Virus record (IMG/VR): IMGVR_UViG_3300027849_000034
Span: 1 to 33,223 of that record
Source of the DNA: a virus
Direction: 5' to 3' (one strand)
DNA: 33,223 nt
In this document: in pieces, positions 10,006 to 24,604 of the stretch
How the letters are laid out: each line of letters starts with the position of its first letter
How positions within the stretch are numbered: the stretch's first letter is position 1
The notes under the pieces: model-generated
Databases searched by the model: none
What the model was told of the DNA's origin: nothing
The model's input: only the letters and a program-made list of their open reading frames with translations
Translations under genes and position numbers: made by a program

Positions 10006-10296
10006 TTAATATTTTTTCTTGTGGTTCATGTGTGGGCCTTCTTCTAAGATCTCCACATTGGAATCATTCACATCAACTGTTTCTATACCGTGTTCAAACA
10101 TTACTGAATAACTCGATACTCTACCAAATTCATCTGGTGCAGAATGTTCACCATGTATTGGTGTACCTTCTTTCCATTCTTTGTGCATTATTTTTGAAGC
10201 ACAAAGATGTTTGTCTCCTTCTAAAGAGCCTGCTGCTACTCCATCTACTGGAGTCTCTACAATAACTCTTTCTCTATATTCTTTAAGTGTTTTCAT
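10006..10296 (-). CDS. Probable prohead core protein at the gp68 position
   Basis: 96 residues from ATG 10296 (MKTLKEYRERVIVETPVDG). This start is chosen over a longer frame because it overlaps the preceding gene by only 14 bases and GGGAG lies upstream. The central part (GEHSAPDEFGRVSSYSVMFEHGIE) is polar and not membrane-spanning; the C-terminus is basic (MNHKKKY). In T4 the order is 20-67-68-21, and this gene occupies the slot of 68. Sequence alone does not prove homology to gp68, so the role is by position. Confidence 0.65.
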   Translation of the reverse strand: MKTLKEYRERVIVETPVDGVAAGSLEGDKHLCASKIMHKEWKEGTPIHGEHSAPDEFGRVSSYSVMFEHGIETVDVNDSNVEILEEGPHMNHKKKY

Positions 10297-10561
10297 CTTC
10301 GACTGGTCTCCCTGTAGTTGTATCAATATCCACAAGCGCATCATCCAATGAGACTCCAGTAGGTTCCATATTAGGATCTACACTCTTGGAGAAAACAGCC
10401 TGTGCTTTCTCTTGTCTCAAAGTATCTAACGCATCAGTAGTTCTAGAGTGCATTAAATCAGCGAACTGACTCTGTGCATCTGCTGAATTACCTGAGATTA
10501 TGTTGTTTAACATATCTGTTGTAGTTACCTCAACCTCTTGTTCTGTTGTTTCTTCTGTCAT
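10283..10561 (-). CDS. Probable prohead core/scaffold protein at the gp67 position
   Basis: 92 residues from ATG 10561, which has GGAG seven bases upstream; a longer frame reaches into gp20 and is less likely. The N-terminus is acidic (MTEETTEQEVEV), followed by a helical segment FADLMHSRTTDALDTLRQEKAQAVFSK of the type found in small prohead core proteins, and a negatively charged end. It begins two bases before the gp20 stop, the position of gp67 in T4. Function by synteny and composition. Confidence 0.7.
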   Translation of the reverse strand: MTEETTEQEVEVTTTDMLNNIISGNSADAQSQFADLMHSRTTDALDTLRQEKAQAVFSKSVDPNMEPTGVSLDDALVDIDTTTGRPVEDENT

Positions 10562-10562
10562 T

Positions 10563-12161
10563 TTATTCTCCATTATCTGGGCCTGGTGGAGGAGTATCTC
10601 CGCCTGGTACATCATTACTTATATCACCTTCAGGTGCCGGTTGATCCGTCGGCACTTGTTGTAAGGGACTCCATTGATACTGCCTACTGTACTGTGGCTC
10701 TGCCATAATCTCAGTTTCTATTGTATCAATCTCTTCATCTGTTAAGTTAAGCACATTCTTTTGAATGTAACGCTTACTAAAAAATGTTCCTATATAAGCA
10801 GCTAGTCCGTTTAATACTTCTACTCTGCTTCTCAAAATCTCTTGTTCTTTAGACTCTGTGTAATAAGCATCTGTGGCAAACTCAAATTCTATATCATCTT
10901 TGATGTCTGTCCAATCTTCTTCTGTAATAACACCTTTTAGTAAGAGCTGTGTATGCAAAAGATCGCTTAACAATACTGAGAACTTTCTCCTTAACTTGAT
11001 GATGAATTTTGTAAACTTCATCTCGTCTCGGTTTATCTCAGCAGCTCTACCAAAATTAAGTCCTGCTTGTTGTTCTAAACGTGATACAGGAATGTTTAAT
11101 GACTGATACAATTTACGTTGAAAATATACTACGTCTTCAATCTGCCCTAGGTTTTGTCCTGCTGGCAATGTATCAATACTTGTTCCTGTTCCACCTTCTC
11201 TTCTGGGTAACCAAAAGTCTTCAAGCATGGACATAAACTTCTTATCATCTCGGATCTCGCCTGTGTTAGCATCGTATACTAACTTGTTTCTATACCGATC
11301 CATGATGTCTTTCATGTACTGTTCAGCCTTCATCTTAGGAAGGTTACCAACATCTACATAAAATATTCTTCTTTCAGGAGCTCTTGTAATCCTATAAATT
11401 ACAACTGCGTTCTCCATCATTCTTAACTGGTTTGCTGGCCTAATTGCCTTATGCAAATATGATAACGCTATATTCTTATCGTGATCTACTAAACCACTTG
11501 GTGCGTATGCTATAGCGTCCTTCGTAATCTTCAGCCCTTGCTGATTTTCCGGTGCAACATATGCGCCTGGTTTTGAGGTAACCCCTTTATCATTATAGAT
11601 AAAGAACTCCTCAATCTCTTTAATAAACAATATGCCTGAAGGATTCTTTTCCTTCTTAACTTCTCGTACCTTTCTAATCTTTCTAGGGTCAATGTATCTT
11701 ACATCTTTAATCCCTGCCTTGGGATTCTCTAGATCGATTACTTTATGAAAGAATAACTTACCGTCTATATACCAACGTCTAAAATAATCTTGAGCTTTAT
11801 CTTTAAAGTCCAACATCATTTTGATGTCATCAAATTCCTTCATAATAGACTTACGAACTGACGAAGACAACTTGACGTTGTCTAGGTTAAGTTCCACTGG
11901 AGACTCGTTCTCCAACTGAGCAATGCTCTCATTAATAATATCTTCAATAGCTGTATCAACGTCTGCCATCCCGGCTATGTCACGATACCTCTTAATTAAT
12001 TCAGACTCGGTTTGGGCAACGCCCTCCAAATCCATGTAGGTACCGTAGTAACCGCCTGCGCGTATACTCTCAATAGCACCGTCTTCGGAAGGGGCAACAA
12101 ACGATTTCTCGTTTGAAGCCTTATCCTCTTTCCGCTTAATCTCAAATCCAAATAAATCCAT
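10563..12161 (-). CDS. gp20: Portal vertex protein gp20
   Basis: 532 residues, matching T4 gp20 (524). It forms the dodecameric portal through which DNA is packaged and to which the neck attaches. Recognisable are the N-terminal MDLFGFEIKRKED, the segment ADVDTAIEDIINESIA, the portal core VRYIDPRKIRKVREVKKE, and LPRREGGTGTSIDTLPAGQN, a highly conserved gp20 stretch used as a marine myovirus marker. The Pro/Gly/Asp-rich C-terminus (about the last 45 residues) is disordered. Cotranscribed with gp19 upstream. Confidence 0.96.
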   Translation of the reverse strand: MDLFGFEIKRKEDKASNEKSFVAPSEDGAIESIRAGGYYGTYMDLEGVAQTESELIKRYRDIAGMADVDTAIEDIINESIAQLENESPVELNLDNVKLSSSVRKSIMKEFDDIKMMLDFKDKAQDYFRRWYIDGKLFFHKVIDLENPKAGIKDVRYIDPRKIRKVREVKKEKNPSGILFIKEIEEFFIYNDKGVTSKPGAYVAPENQQGLKITKDAIAYAPSGLVDHDKNIALSYLHKAIRPANQLRMMENAVVIYRITRAPERRIFYVDVGNLPKMKAEQYMKDIMDRYRNKLVYDANTGEIRDDKKFMSMLEDFWLPRREGGTGTSIDTLPAGQNLGQIEDVVYFQRKLYQSLNIPVSRLEQQAGLNFGRAAEINRDEMKFTKFIIKLRRKFSVLLSDLLHTQLLLKGVITEEDWTDIKDDIEFEFATDAYYTESKEQEILRSRVEVLNGLAAYIGTFFSKRYIQKNVLNLTDEEIDTIETEIMAEPQYSRQYQWSPLQQVPTDQPAPEGDISNDVPGGDTPPPGPDNGE

Positions 12162-12196: not shown

Positions 12197-12718
12197 CTAT
12201 GTGTTTGTATAATGCTGGTACTGGAAAGTAACAGTAAATTCTTCAATTACATCGTTTTGTGCATATTGTAATGCAATCTCAGACATGTTAATCGGAAATG
12301 CATCATGTAAAAGATACGTTCCTAATGGTAATGGTTTATCATTTCTGTCTAAATGTTCGACTGTTAAGTCCACTTGATATTCAGCTGGTGTCAATGCTTC
12401 AGCACCGTTGTCTACCTTGTCATTCATTATTTCCATCCATTTTTCAAAGGGCCCTCTCAAAGACTGATTAGTATCATTAATGATAGTAATTGTCCATGGA
12501 TCAAAAATCCTTTCGCCTGCTAATTTAACTTCCCTACCTCGGTATTGTACAATAGCTGGGTTTACTGTAGAAGCTGGTATCGCTGCTCCAGAAACCAATA
12601 CAGAGTAGTCGTTTTTAAGGCCCGCTGCTGCTAATGTAGGGAATACCAAAAGTACACGAAACTGATTGGGACGTGCGCCGCCCTGTCCTAGTTTCGATTT
12701 AAAATCTGCTATGTTCAT
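12197..12718 (-). CDS. gp19: Tail tube protein gp19
   Basis: 173 residues, near T4 gp19 (163). It polymerises into the inner tail tube inside the sheath. The start MNIADFKSKLGQGGARPNQF, FEKWMEIMN in the middle, and the late LLHDAFPINMSEIALQYAQND followed by a FTVTFQYQHY strand are typical of the family. AAAGGAG precedes the ATG and an exact late promoter lies 25 bases upstream. It shares the fold pattern of the gene at 4048-4620. Confidence 0.95.
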   Translation of the reverse strand: MNIADFKSKLGQGGARPNQFRVLLVFPTLAAAGLKNDYSVLVSGAAIPASTVNPAIVQYRGREVKLAGERIFDPWTITIINDTNQSLRGPFEKWMEIMNDKVDNGAEALTPAEYQVDLTVEHLDRNDKPLPLGTYLLHDAFPINMSEIALQYAQNDVIEEFTVTFQYQHYTNT

Positions 12719-12742
12719 CTTTATCTCCTTTACTTATATGTA

Positions 12743-12750
12743 TATTTATA
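12743..12750 (-). promoter_or_regulatory. T4-type late promoter for gp19-gp20-core-gp21
   Basis: Exact TATAAATA on the minus strand, 25 bases before the gp19 ATG. It begins directly after the second stop codon (12753-12755) that ends the extended gp18 frame. Confidence 0.8.
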
Positions 12751-12752
12751 CG

Positions 12753-12836
12753 TTAGCCGCCGATCTCTTCGAAAGCTACGCCTGTTCTGGTTGCTATAAA
12801 ATTCAAAGTGATAAAGTTAACTGACTTGGCAGGTTA
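12753..12836 (-). other. In-frame extension of gp18 behind a TAA stop
   Basis: After the gp18 stop TAA (12836-12834) the same frame stays open for 26 more codons to a second TAA at 12755-12753. The peptide starts PAKSVNFITL and ends TGVAFEEIGG, which resembles the C-terminal end of T4-like sheath proteins, where an Asp-Ile region is followed by a Lys-Pro-Ala segment, a Asn-Phe-Ile strand and a Thr-Gly-Val-x-Phe-Glu-Glu-Ile end. A six-base in-frame loss that turned a codon group like Ile-Tyr-Ile-Lys-Pro into Ile-stop-Pro would explain the arrangement. Alternatives are stop-codon readthrough or a sequence error. Confidence 0.75.
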
Positions 12837-14660
12837 AATATCAGCTATAAAATTATTGCTGTCGATAACTTCAGCAGTATTATTAGATGTATTACATATT
12901 ACCTTAAAGTCGTATATTCCTCTACGTCCTTGAACGTCCCTTAAGAATGGTGTTATAATAGATGTAAACTGTGCTCTTGTAAATGCATCATTGAATTCAA
13001 ACAACTGATATTTAGCTGCTGTTGCAATGGCTTTTTCAAGTACAATAAACAATCTTCTGACATTAATTCTATCAAAAGCACTAGGTGCTCCTAATAGTGT
13101 TTTGTCGCCGAACAATACAATCCCGTTTCCAGGGCTGTTAATTATTGGGTTAACTCCAATCTTATACAAATTGTCTCTATTAGTCTTGTTGGGGTTCCAG
13201 GCTAGCTTTACTGCATTCCTGATCTGTCCACGATTAAAACCTGCTGGTGAATACCATGGATCACGTTCTTGGTCTGTTGTTACACATAGTCCTGCAACGT
13301 CTCCGTTTAATGGTACCCATCTATACGCATCGTTGTAGCGATCATACATGTATTTCCAGTTACTATCCATTACACTATAACTAGTGGATGCTAATGCACC
13401 TTTGTCACCTGTTATAGATGTCTCTTCATTATTACTGTTATTAACAACAGAAGCTTGTAGAGGTGAATGGAATGAGATACAGTCTTTTCTGACTTTAGAA
13501 ATATTGTCTTGTACATACTTTTGGTCTACTAAAGAGTGGCCTGCTGTAAGTACTAAAGCAATATCTGTTTGTTCTTTATCATTAAATAAAGCGTATCCAG
13601 TTTGGATATCACCTGAAGATGCTGCTGCTGTAATACCACCAGTTAAACTTACTGTAGCTTCTGCTGCTGTAAATTTACTAGTGAATGTTGTTCCAGATGC
13701 TGTTGATCCGAATGTTGCGTCGCCTGCTGGATGATCTGTCCAATAAATAAAGTCTGACTGTCTATTAACGACATCTTTATAGTAAATTGAACCACCGTCT
13801 AATGCTTTAGCATCTGATGCTTTTGAAACGCCTTCAAATCTTTCTAGAACAGTATTAACTGTGCCTGAAAACAAGCCGTCTTCGTCAATAACAACAATGT
13901 GGAATGCGTCATTTGAGCCGCCTTCTGTTGTTACTCTTTGGCTACTATAAGGTGCGCCGTCAAATTCATTTGCATAAGTCCAGCCTGCTGATAAGACTGC
14001 TGTAGCTGTTGCTCCAGACCCACCGCCACCACTAAAGGATATTGTAGGTGCTGATGTGTAGCCGTTGCCGTTATTAGTAACAACAATAGCTGTTACCGCT
14101 CCACCTGAAACAGTTGCTGTACCAGTAGCTGTAACTCCACCAGCCGGAGCTGCTGAAAATGTTACTGTTGGTGAACTAGTATAAGCAGATCCGCCTGCTG
14201 TTACTGTGCCGGATGCTATTGAGTTGGTATCGAAATTACTAGAATCTGCGAATGCAACTTTTAAGCTGTTTCCTATAGCGCCTGGGTACTTAGCGGCAAA
14301 CATTCCGTTTGTGCCAGATCCTGTGCTATGATTATTTGTGTAGTCGTCTGCATTAGCAATAAGGACCGCTGATCCTGATGCTACTGCGTTACGGGCTGCT
14401 GTTCCTACAGCTCTAACTACTTTAAGGTTGTTACCATATGCCAAGAACGATGCTGCAGTAAAAAAGTCTACTGCTGTAGCGTTATCGGGACGGTAAAAAC
14501 GTTGTACGAGATTATTCTCTGAACTAATTGTTGTGATCTCTTGAGTTGGACCCCACTGGAAGTTACCTACCATAGCACCTGTTGTGGTTGCTACGGCTGG
14601 GACTACACTAGTAAGATCTGTTTCTTTAACAAGAACACCTGGTGATAGCTGAAATGCCAT
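12834..14660 (-). CDS. gp18: Tail sheath protein gp18 (C-terminus cut by an in-frame stop)
   Basis: 608 residues to the first stop. It builds the contractile sheath. The N-terminus [17 protein letters not shown] and the domain around [24 protein letters not shown] and [24 protein letters not shown] are classic phage sheath features. Residues about 151-226 form a Gly/Ser/Thr-rich beta-repeat insertion. The reading frame ends at NNFIADI followed by TAA, but 26 further in-frame codons encode what looks like the missing sheath C-terminal strand. In T4 this region links neighbouring subunits. The start is supported by GAGGAG and the late promoter at 14726-14733. Confidence 0.93.
13983..14210 (-). 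repeat. Gly/Thr-rich beta-repeat insertion coded within gp18
   Basis: Codes gp18 residues about 151-226. Two imperfect units are visible: [20 protein letters not shown] and [20 protein letters not shown], each followed by a GATATA-like segment. Such GxxYTSxPTVTFSG repeats are found in several phage structural proteins and probably form an exposed beta domain on the sheath surface. Confidence 0.6.
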
Positions 14661-14759: not shown

Positions 14760-14793
14760 AGTGTAGACACATAATTAGCATTGTGTACACACT
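14760..14793 (-). other. Imperfect hairpin overlapping the gp17 stop
   Basis: AGTGT pairs with ACACT, then a 2x2 mismatch, then ACACA with TGTGT, leaving a 10-base loop. No long T-run follows on the minus strand, so a normal terminator is doubtful; it may be an mRNA 3'-end or processing structure. Weak evidence. Confidence 0.3.
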
Positions 14794-16444
14794 ACCTATT
14801 GATAAGATCCTTAAGTTTTTTCTGCAATGCTACTGGATTATATTCGTCTTCCAGTAACCATACATCGCCACCTAATACCTCAAACTCTGGTTCTCCGCCA
14901 TCATATCTTATGAAAGGAGTTAGATTAGATTCTATCTCTCCAATCTGTGTTCCATATAAACCTTCTCTTGTGTTGACATCTACCATGTCTTTAAAGAACG
15001 ATTGTCCACTTAGCCACCCAAAAAGAACCATACACATAACTAAATCATCGTGATAACCTTCGTCTGCTTGATACGATTGACTCTTCTCAACAAAGGTTGA
15101 TATCTCTGATATTATATGCTCATCAAAGATCAATAATTTTTGTTCCTCAAGTAAAGATTTGAATGTAAAACACCCCTGTCTTTTAACTTGTTTAGATGTA
15201 TTGACACCTAATTTAGTACTCTTTCCGAAACCTGGACTAACATACTGCCTTTGATTCTCGGTTACAGTACTAAGTATGTTATCGTATTCTACTTCTCCAT
15301 GTAGAATCTCTACTACCTGTTGGCCAATGTCATTAGTTTCAACTAAGACAAACGCATCGTTGTAGTCTCTACCCAACTTTCCTATTATATCTGGAAACAA
15401 CATAGGGGCTATTTTATTATCTCTAAACTTAGCCACTACCTCATAAGGCATTGCTGTAATATCTACAACAACACACGCTGAATAGTCTCCACCTATACCT
15501 CTAGCAGTATCTGCTACAATAGTATAGTAATGTTTTTCTTTTGGTTCTACATATATATCTAAACCATTCTTTTGATATATTGGTTCTTTTGAACTCAATC
15601 TACCAATTGTTGTAGCATTTATTAAAGTATTTGTAGACCCTAGAAACTCACATAAAACTTCTTGATTGAATTTAACCTCACCCAAGAGGCCTTTCTGCTC
15701 TTCCAACCACTTCTCATCTCTTCCAGGAATCTCATAGTAAGGTATGAACATGTTTTTAAACCCGTTCGTACCCTTCTCAGATTCGTTCCAAAATTTCCAA
15801 AAGTGATTATACCCTAGTGGTGTGGACGTTAATAGTATTTTTGTTGTCTCACCCGCTGAAATTGTAGGGTATACAGATGTAAAGAACTCATCCGCTATGT
15901 TGTTAGGTATGATTGCTGCCTCATCAATGTACAACCAGTTAACTGATTTACCTCGAATTGCTGATGCTGTTGTAGCTGCTGATAATACTTTACTATTATT
16001 CTCTAACTCAACGTCACCCTTGTTCCATACCCTAACACCTTGTTGCATCCAAAGTGGTAGATTTTCGTACATTATCTGGTACCTGTTAAGTACCTCTCTA
16101 GCAGCTGATGCTTTGTTAGCCATGATGGCTACTGTTTTGTCTTCTTGAAATATTGTGTAATGTAATATACACGCAGCTGCTGTTACAGTTTTCCCTTGCT
16201 GTCTCCCTTCCATTAAAATTACTTTTCTCTCATCCATAATGAGATCCACTTTGCCTTTTTGGCACGGGAATAATTTAAATGGTTGTAATCCTTTGTCTAG
16301 TGTAACGATCTTTACATAGTTTTCTATAAAGTATTTTGTATCGTTCTGACATTTAATATATTCTTCGATTTCATGTTGTGTGAAATCATGTTTGTAAGCT
16401 AATGGTTTAAGATTAGGATTGCCGTGATACGATGATGCTTCCAT
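14792..16444 (-). CDS. gp17: Terminase large subunit gp17
   Basis: 550 residues. It is the packaging motor: an N-terminal ATPase and a C-terminal RNase H-like nuclease that cuts concatemers. Visible are Walker A EGRQQGKT (79-86), Walker B LYIDEA (171-176), the coupling segment LLTSTPLGYNHFW, and nuclease Asp residues in TIVADTARGIGGDYS (D312, D320). The start codon shares a base with the gp16 stop (TAATG), giving coupled translation with its partner. Confidence 0.96.
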   Translation of the reverse strand: MEASSYHGNPNLKPLAYKHDFTQHEIEEYIKCQNDTKYFIENYVKIVTLDKGLQPFKLFPCQKGKVDLIMDERKVILMEGRQQGKTVTAAACILHYTIFQEDKTVAIMANKASAAREVLNRYQIMYENLPLWMQQGVRVWNKGDVELENNSKVLSAATTASAIRGKSVNWLYIDEAAIIPNNIADEFFTSVYPTISAGETTKILLTSTPLGYNHFWKFWNESEKGTNGFKNMFIPYYEIPGRDEKWLEEQKGLLGEVKFNQEVLCEFLGSTNTLINATTIGRLSSKEPIYQKNGLDIYVEPKEKHYYTIVADTARGIGGDYSACVVVDITAMPYEVVAKFRDNKIAPMLFPDIIGKLGRDYNDAFVLVETNDIGQQVVEILHGEVEYDNILSTVTENQRQYVSPGFGKSTKLGVNTSKQVKRQGCFTFKSLLEEQKLLIFDEHIISEISTFVEKSQSYQADEGYHDDLVMCMVLFGWLSGQSFFKDMVDVNTREGLYGTQIGEIESNLTPFIRYDGGEPEFEVLGGDVWLLEDEYNPVALQKKLKDLINR

Positions 16445-19519: not shown

Positions 19520-21451
19520 CTAGTTTAATAATGTTCCAGCTGCATTGTATATCGAAGTACCTGTAAGTGTGGCTGTTGAGCCTTCACCTGGTGTATGTGA
19601 AACAGTAATACCGTTTCCACCTGATACTTGCGTCATAAAGTTACCTGTTGTATCCGTACCTAATGCAACACTATTGGCTGCTATAGTTGTACTTATACTT
19701 ATATTACCTGTACCATCAAAGTTTGCAGTACCTGTTACATCGCCGCTTACTGCTATTGCTCTAGCTGTTGCCAGTGCCGTAGCTGTTGCTGCTAATCCAG
19801 ATGTTGACTGGTTACCGGCTGCGTTAACACCTGGCAAGTTGATCGCTGCAGTACCATCAAATGATACCCCACCAATTGTTCTTGCTGTTGCTAATGCCGT
19901 AGCACCTGCTGCTAATGTTGAAGTTGCTGCGTTACCACTTGTTGCTTGGTTACCGGTTGCGTTAACACCTGGCAAGTTAATATTTGCAGAACCATTAAAT
20001 GATACCCCGCCTATTGTTCTTGCTGTTGCTAGTGTTGTTGCTGTGCCTGCGTTACCAGTAGCTGTCCCAGCTGAACCACTTACATTACCTGTAACATCAC
20101 CTGTTACGTCACCAACTAAGGTAGCGTTAAGGGTTTTGTTAAAGTTCCATCTATCGTCGGCTGAGGTATAAGTTAATGTTGCTGCTGCTCCATCGACTGT
20201 TAGTCCTCCACCGTTAGCTGCTGCTGCGTTTGCCGCACCTTGAGCTACTGTGATGTTTAGATCTGCAACTGTTAAAGTTGAAGAGCTAACTGTTGTTGTA
20301 GTTCCGGAAACTGTAAAGTCTCCTGTTACTGTTAAGTTATCTGATACTTGTACATTACCACTTCCATTACCCGCTAATACTAAATTAGTATCTGTAGATT
20401 TTGATGTAAGTGAATCTGCCGCTAAGCCTGAACCAAATGTAATTGCATTACCTGCTGAGTTTGTGATATTGCTACCGTCCTCAATTTGTAATGTGCTTTT
20501 AACAGAAACAAGCCCTGAACCAGTAGCGTCTAATTCGACATTACCTGATCCTGATGTTTGTACTGATACGTTTTGGTTAGCATCAGCTGAGATACTAATT
20601 GTACCTGAGTTATCTTCAATAACCTTTTGTCCATTAACATACAATGAACCAGGACCTACGAATACGTCCTTCCATTGAAGTGATGAACTACCAAGACTAA
20701 ATGTATCATCAGTGCTTGGGAATAGGCCTGTTGAAGTCATACTCATAACTTCTGTTCCGGCTGCGTCGAATCTAATAGTATCTTCGTCTGCTGACTCTTC
20801 TACCTGTATTTTCGTATCGCCGTCTGCATCTTTTAAACCCTTCGCTATGATTGTGTCAAAGGTTGGTGTTGCAGTTGTTACTAAACTTTGATCTATTGCC
20901 TTCACCGCTGCTAAATCAGATAACTCGCTATCCATAAGAGCGCCTGCTGCTGTAACATTTGTTGTATCTGTTACGTCTGCTGCTGCTTCAATGGCATCTA
21001 GTTTGCTATGATCTGCTGCTGTAAAGTCATTAGTTGTTAATCCCCCATCACCTACGGTGTATGTGGTGTTAGTATCTGTTGCGTTAAGTGTTGTCCCAGT
21101 TATAGACAGGTTACTGCCTAAATCTAAGAACGCTGTAGCGCCAGCGCTATCGTCCCAGAAGACAATTTGATCGTCGTCTGGATCTGATAAGGATTCTAAT
21201 CCTAAGTGGGATAGGTTAACCGTAACTGCTCCGCCTGTTCCTCCACCTGAAAGTCCTGTGCCTGCAGTAACACCCGTAATATCTCCAGCTTGTATCTCTG
21301 AAAATTTTGCGAGTCTATGTCCGCCTGCTGTTGAACCGTCATGTACGAGGACTGTATCTAGCGTAGTATCTACGGAAAGCTCACCCACGGCACCTGTAAA
21401 CGAACCGTTTTGACTCGTTGTGCCTCTTCTAAATTGTACCTGTGTTGGCAT
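19520..21451 (-). CDS. Long tail-fibre/adhesin-like structural protein
   Basis: 643 residues. It begins with the fibre attachment module VQFRRGTTSQNGSFTGAVGEL...VHDGSTAGGHRL (1-48). The body is Gly/Thr/Asn/Ala-rich beta-structured sequence, including DFTVSGTTTTVSSSTLTVADL, a module also found in the 469-residue fibre, and a VTG-rich linker. Near the C-terminus a 46-residue repeat occurs (ATARTIGGVSF...INLPGVNA). Such sequences build trimeric fibres that bind the host surface. It lies just before gp13, so it is probably a whisker, short-fibre or distal fibre element; exact T4 equivalence cannot be assigned. Confidence 0.8.
   Translation of the reverse strand: MPTQVQFRRGTTSQNGSFTGAVGELSVDTTLDTVLVHDGSTAGGHRLAKFSEIQAGDITGVTAGTGLSGGGTGGAVTVNLSHLGLESLSDPDDDQIVFWDDSAGATAFLDLGSNLSITGTTLNATDTNTTYTVGDGGLTTNDFTAADHSKLDAIEAAADVTDTTNVTAAGALMDSELSDLAAVKAIDQSLVTTATPTFDTIIAKGLKDADGDTKIQVEESADEDTIRFDAAGTEVMSMTSTGLFPSTDDTFSLGSSSLQWKDVFVGPGSLYVNGQKVIEDNSGTISISADANQNVSVQTSGSGNVELDATGSGLVSVKSTLQIEDGSNITNSAGNAITFGSGLAADSLTSKSTDTNLVLAGNGSGNVQVSDNLTVTGDFTVSGTTTTVSSSTLTVADLNITVAQGAANAAAANGGGLTVDGAAATLTYTSADDRWNFNKTLNATLVGDVTGDVTGNVSGSAGTATGNAGTATTLATARTIGGVSFNGSANINLPGVNATGNQATSGNAATSTLAAGATALATARTIGGVSFDGTAAINLPGVNAAGNQSTSGLAATATALATARAIAVSGDVTGTANFDGTGNISISTTIAANSVALGTDTTGNFMTQVSGGNGITVSHTPGEGSTATLTGTSIYNAAGTLLN
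19811..20041 (-). repeat. Direct repeat within the long fibre gene
   Basis: Two 93-base copies, 19811-19903 and 19949-20041, are 138 bases apart (46 codons) and differ at only a few positions. They encode the segment running from ALATARTIGGVSF to INLPGVNA and on to GNQ. A third, more divergent ALATARAI unit follows toward the C-terminus. Recombination between copies could change fibre length. Confidence 0.8.
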
Positions 21452-24592: not shown

Positions 24593-24604
24593 TATTTATA
24601 AATA
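24593..24604. promoter_or_regulatory. Palindromic divergent late promoter
   Basis: TATTTATAAATA is a perfect 12-bp palindrome that holds one exact TATAAATA on each strand (minus: 24600-24593; plus: 24597-24604), overlapping by four bases. Minus strand transcripts would serve the fibre operon; plus strand transcripts the glycosyltransferase cluster. On the plus side the expected start lies at about 24610, next to the ATG codons at 24608 and 24617, so the mRNA would have almost no leader. Confidence 0.8.

Follow-up and report, generated by a model that had tools for sequence, protein, structure and literature searches.

A six-base deletion confined to one metagenomic contig truncates a T4-like tail sheath gene: a lone defect or a mistake of assembly rather than a novel type of sheath

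The window analysed here, a whole stretch of 33,223 nucleotides taken from the IMG/VR virus record IMGVR_UViG_3300027849_000034, carries on its minus strand a gene for a contractile tail sheath protein, gp18, at 12834-14660. It is located between the gene for the large terminase subunit, gp17 (14792-16444, minus strand), next upstream, and that for the tail tube, gp19 (12197-12718, minus strand; PHROG 45, E=1.4e-50), next downstream, and this position is confirmed by the PHROG and Pfam matches of the neighbours and by the annotation of Pelagibacter phage Mosig EXVC030M, whose gene order is as in the window. The gp18 open reading frame matches the tail sheath family PHROG 23 (E=3e-115) and the Pfam families Phage_sheath_1, Gp18_domIII_N and Phage_sheath_1C, and both the subtilisin-like domain of the sheath (PF04984, E=9.5e-14) and Gp18 domain III (PF22671, E=1.7e-08) score above their curated cut-offs. 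It is the single sheath match in the window, where no second copy was found. The gp18 of T4 (PDB 3J2M and 9MKB), which has the same neighbours in the same order gp17, gp18, gp19, is homologous along the N-terminal part and along residues 336-637, the region of the C-terminal strand included. Judged by sequence and position, the gene is a T4-like gp18.

As it stands, the frame encodes only 608 amino acids and ends with a TAA at 12834-12836. The same frame remains open beyond this stop for 26 codons (12833-12756), which read PAKSVNFITLNFIATRTGVAFEEIGG, up to a second TAA at 12755-12753, so that the segment 12753-12833 is what is left of the sheath C-terminus, 26 stranded codons with the ancestral TAA, untranslated in this contig. 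The coordinates, the number of codons and the length of the interval between gp18 and gp19, which is 115 bases (12719-12833), had all been given correctly in an earlier note on this DNA, and its proposal that a lost C-terminus explains this otherwise empty interval holds as well, since the stranded codons account for most of it. Just beyond the second stop, at 12743-12750 on the minus strand, there is a box of the sequence TATAAATA, resembling a T4-type late promoter, for gp19; such boxes occur 14 times in the window while shuffled sequences give 4.0 by chance. Two of them stand back to back on opposite strands at 24593-24604, where the gene blocks switch between the minus and the plus strand, and possibly form a divergent late promoter.

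Four other IMG/VR contigs, L001 to L004, belong to the same phage species, with 99.55-99.60% nucleotide identity to the window over 3.7-7.8 kb, and they differ from it in that all have an intact sheath gene of 637 codons. They encode the 608 residues of the window save at most a few substitutions, and in 4/4 of them six extra bases, TGATGA on the plus strand, are found between positions corresponding to 12835 and 12836 of the window. Their protein runs ...NNFIADI-FIK-PAKSVNFITLNFIATRTGVAFEEIGG, so that D-I-stop-P of the window is D-I-F-I-K-P there, and the 637-codon frame ends exactly on the second TAA of the window. Thus the suggestion that homologues have two extra residues where the stop lies is borne out, with F-I-K at the place of the stop and a net loss of six bases, and so is the suggestion that the stop arose by an in-frame deletion of six bases. 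Between the window and the four contigs the 26 stranded codons do not differ, and because gp18 ordinarily ends with these very residues in contigs 99.5% identical to the window, the resemblance to a sheath C-terminus is not due to chance. The deletion can be placed in a single way and is flanked by no microhomology; simple slippage, therefore, fails to explain it. Degenerate patterns of the junction searched against viral and genome contig collections, in which the record of the window and perhaps its closest kin were hidden, retrieved no sheath gene with the stop, and the two junction matches obtained (L169 and L170) were unrelated sequence. The deletion is private to one contig among the contigs found. 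Since near-identical relatives keep the gene intact, it is a private and recent change rather than a trait of the lineage.

Is the contig itself simply noisy? This could be ruled out by comparison with G003, the 44-kb record of L003, over 31.3 kb. The two differ by 67 substitutions and two indels, both of six bases and one of them the gp18 deletion; the substitutions within open reading frames are 37 synonymous and 24 nonsynonymous ones, none of which creates or destroys a stop. There is no other frame break, the second indel being in frame, so the contig is not error-ridden. This second indel, at 10550, coincides with a short GTT/TCT repeat between the open reading frames 10283-10615 and 10563-12161, near the 3' end of the portal gene. 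The closest contig by haplotype is L001, which has an intact gp18 and only 3 mismatches to the window in 3.66 kb; besides the deletion, it differs by one further six-base length difference in the spacer beside the TATAAATA box of gp19, where the six bases 12740-12745 are present in the window and in L002-L004 and missing from L001. Elsewhere, in a tail-fibre-like open reading frame at 19520-21451 on the minus strand, 12 substitutions relative to the relatives of the window, nearly all synonymous, are crowded into 250 bases (19991-20237), a cluster that suggests recombination in the fibre gene.

The part of the protein that lies beyond the stop is extremely conserved in relatives. The earlier note had called for an alignment with homologues, and in it the residues after the stop are conserved: the C-terminus is kept in 77/77 of the homologous viral-contig loci long enough to include the 3' end, at identities as low as about 45% (80 loci in total, of which three run off their contigs before that point). 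Among isolate phage records matching the last 80 residues, 2458 of 2499 cover at least 80% of them, i.e., extend beyond the position of the stop. In an alignment of 20 sequences, I608, P612, N617, F618, L621, F623 and F632 never vary, and conservation across columns 609-637 is on a par with that of the domain before them (majority fraction 0.81 vs 0.83). The lost 29 residues form the end of the Pfam domain Phage_sheath_1C, which is matched from profile position 3 to 102 of 104 in an intact relative and from 3 to 85 in the window. Because its C-terminal domain is incomplete, the window copy is best listed as a truncated allele rather than a sheath of a new form. The likeness of the extension to the usual T4-like C-terminus, also proposed before, is upheld by T4 gp18 (3j2m, 9mkb), which aligns straight through this extension; the window copy ends at about T4 residue 627 and lacks the residues aligned to about T4 628-656. 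Both in protein and in DNA, the Pelagibacter phages Mosig and HTVC008M count among the closest cultured relatives (about 52% protein identity in the sheath); each is too distant to belong to the same species, and the sheath gene of Mosig is full length at 1920 bp. By these sequence relationships, gp18 of the window is an ordinary T4-like sheath gene of a marine phage related to Mosig and HTVC008M.

What the lost strand does can be seen in other contractile tails. In phage P1, the N-terminus of a sheath subunit pairs with the C-terminus of a neighbour in a so-called handshake, joined by a hairpin of the next ring, and the resulting four-stranded sheet is kept in both states of the tail (PMC10304247). 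In E217, N- and C-terminal strands likewise build an intersubunit sheet, which is the sole joint between subunits in the extended tail (PMC10329688), and domain IV of T4 gp18 (residues 1-24 and 510-659) maintains the connectivity of subunits (PMC3004832). An AlphaFold2 model of the intact relative strongly matches the fold of T4-type sheaths (Z 36.4 and rmsd 2.8 over 476 residues against 9f4a; Z 33.6 against 3j2m). As the predicted C-terminal domain has low confidence, with pLDDT mostly 43-67, the assignment of the strand relies on homologues and not on the model. By analogy with those phages, the lost 29 residues would lie in the region forming the intersubunit beta-sheet.

Then, what does the truncation represent? 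The earlier note had supposed that the phage either tolerates a truncated sheath or reads through the TAA. Both presume a fixed trait, while the deletion is absent from the four near-identical contigs that cover the site and from every homologue checked, and this part of the note is not supported. Programmed or leaky read-through giving a minority of full-length sheath is very improbable. The only point for it is that the downstream frame is open and unchanged, which a recent loss explains by itself; at 0.4% divergence, 26 unchanged codons are expected whether used or not and are uninformative on this matter. The mark of a read-through gene is a stop conserved among relatives with coding sequence downstream, but no relative has a stop at that position and the junction searches were negative. 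Of the bacterial stop codons TAA leaks least, and a sheath requires well over a hundred copies of its subunit. Recoding by a suppressor tRNA finds no candidate, as no tRNA, suppressor included, is encoded in the 33-kb window, which was the part of the genome searched. A real and viable deletion, with a sheath lacking the C-terminal strand made and tolerated, deserves somewhat more credit and is still unlikely. Gp053 of phage FV3 forms polysheaths even when as many as 100 residues are removed from its C-terminus, C-terminal truncations of T4 gp18 are reported to harm polymerisation less than N-terminal ones (both in PMC6357053), and RaK2 041 lacking 200 residues still assembles into tubes (PMC8618960). 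However, these cases concern recombinant polysheaths, which resemble the contracted state and are no proof that an extended, working tail can be built, whereas subunits of an extended tail are joined through this beta-sheet alone, as in E217, and the segment is lost in none of the relatives counted above. Compensation by the tube gene was also considered. Gp19 is the most diverged stretch between the window and L001 on one side and L002-L004 on the other, with some 13 substitutions in its 522 bases (9 nonsynonymous) compared with 67 over the whole 31.3 kb, as though the tube allele had been exchanged or were changing fast; it does not look compensatory, since L001 has the same allele, bar one synonymous site, together with an intact sheath, and this explanation was ruled out.

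It is harder to choose between an error in the contig and a defect in the sampled DNA, which appear about equally likely. The six bases may well be present in the phage and have been lost locally, for example at a bubble between strain variants or through a chimeric read, as the deletion is unique to this contig with degenerate junction searches negative, sits between the strain-polymorphic sites 12740-12745 and 12860, has no microhomology and strikes a part conserved in all homologues. A published parallel for sequence errors in structural genes of phages comes from phage A-1(L), in which resequencing corrected insertions and deletions that disrupted coding regions (PMC10966104). On the other side, the remainder of the contig is clean over 31.3 kb, and no true internal break was found in 634 copies of eight structural genes on related IMG/VR contigs, a count in which some contigs enter twice and in which the eight calls in the portal gene proved to be its natural terminal stops; such artefacts must thus be rare. 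Errors of short reads are mostly single-base ones, and k-mer assemblers need the junction to be present in reads. With the rest of the contig clean, the relatives intact and the lost part conserved, the explanation slightly preferred here, with a probability of roughly 40%, is that the deletion is real in the sampled DNA and marks a defective or dead-end genome copy, not an adaptation. That the rest of the contig is clean and that breaks have a base rate of zero argues against frequent artefacts; that the deletion is private, lacks microhomology and falls in an extremely conserved part argues against a successful allele.

For such a defective copy, the course of events might be as follows. The private and recent in-frame deletion removes parts of the codons for F609, I610 and K611 and fuses the rest into TAA; the identity of the stranded codons to those of the relatives is what a recent change predicts. 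Translation then stops after residue 608 out of 637, which costs the protein its final 29 residues and with them the end of its C-terminal domain. Elsewhere among contractile tails, the C-terminal strand is paired both with a neighbour's N-terminal arm and with the beta-hairpin of a second neighbour, and a subunit without it should fail to hold the extended sheath properly. We infer in this way both that the deletion was present in real template DNA and that the truncation costs the sheath its function, the latter with less than certainty because published C-terminal truncations still polymerise. It is to be added that of two alleles a consensus contig normally shows the more frequent, and this fits poorly with a lethal allele; a defective copy could, for example, have been multiplied within a cell or maintained through complementation.

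Whichever of these two accounts applies, the truncated gp18 does not amount to a new kind of sheath but to an isolated defect or a fault of assembly. The case serves mainly as a caution, as an essential phage gene that looks strikingly truncated in a single metagenomic contig turns out intact once near-identical contigs are compared. There is a small chance that a viable T4-like strain makes working contractile tails from a sheath without the handshake strand, either alone or mixed with full-length subunits that come from rare read-through or from a co-infecting phage. If the deletion turned out to be common in the population, the indispensability of the C-terminal handshake strand in the T4-like tail would come into question.
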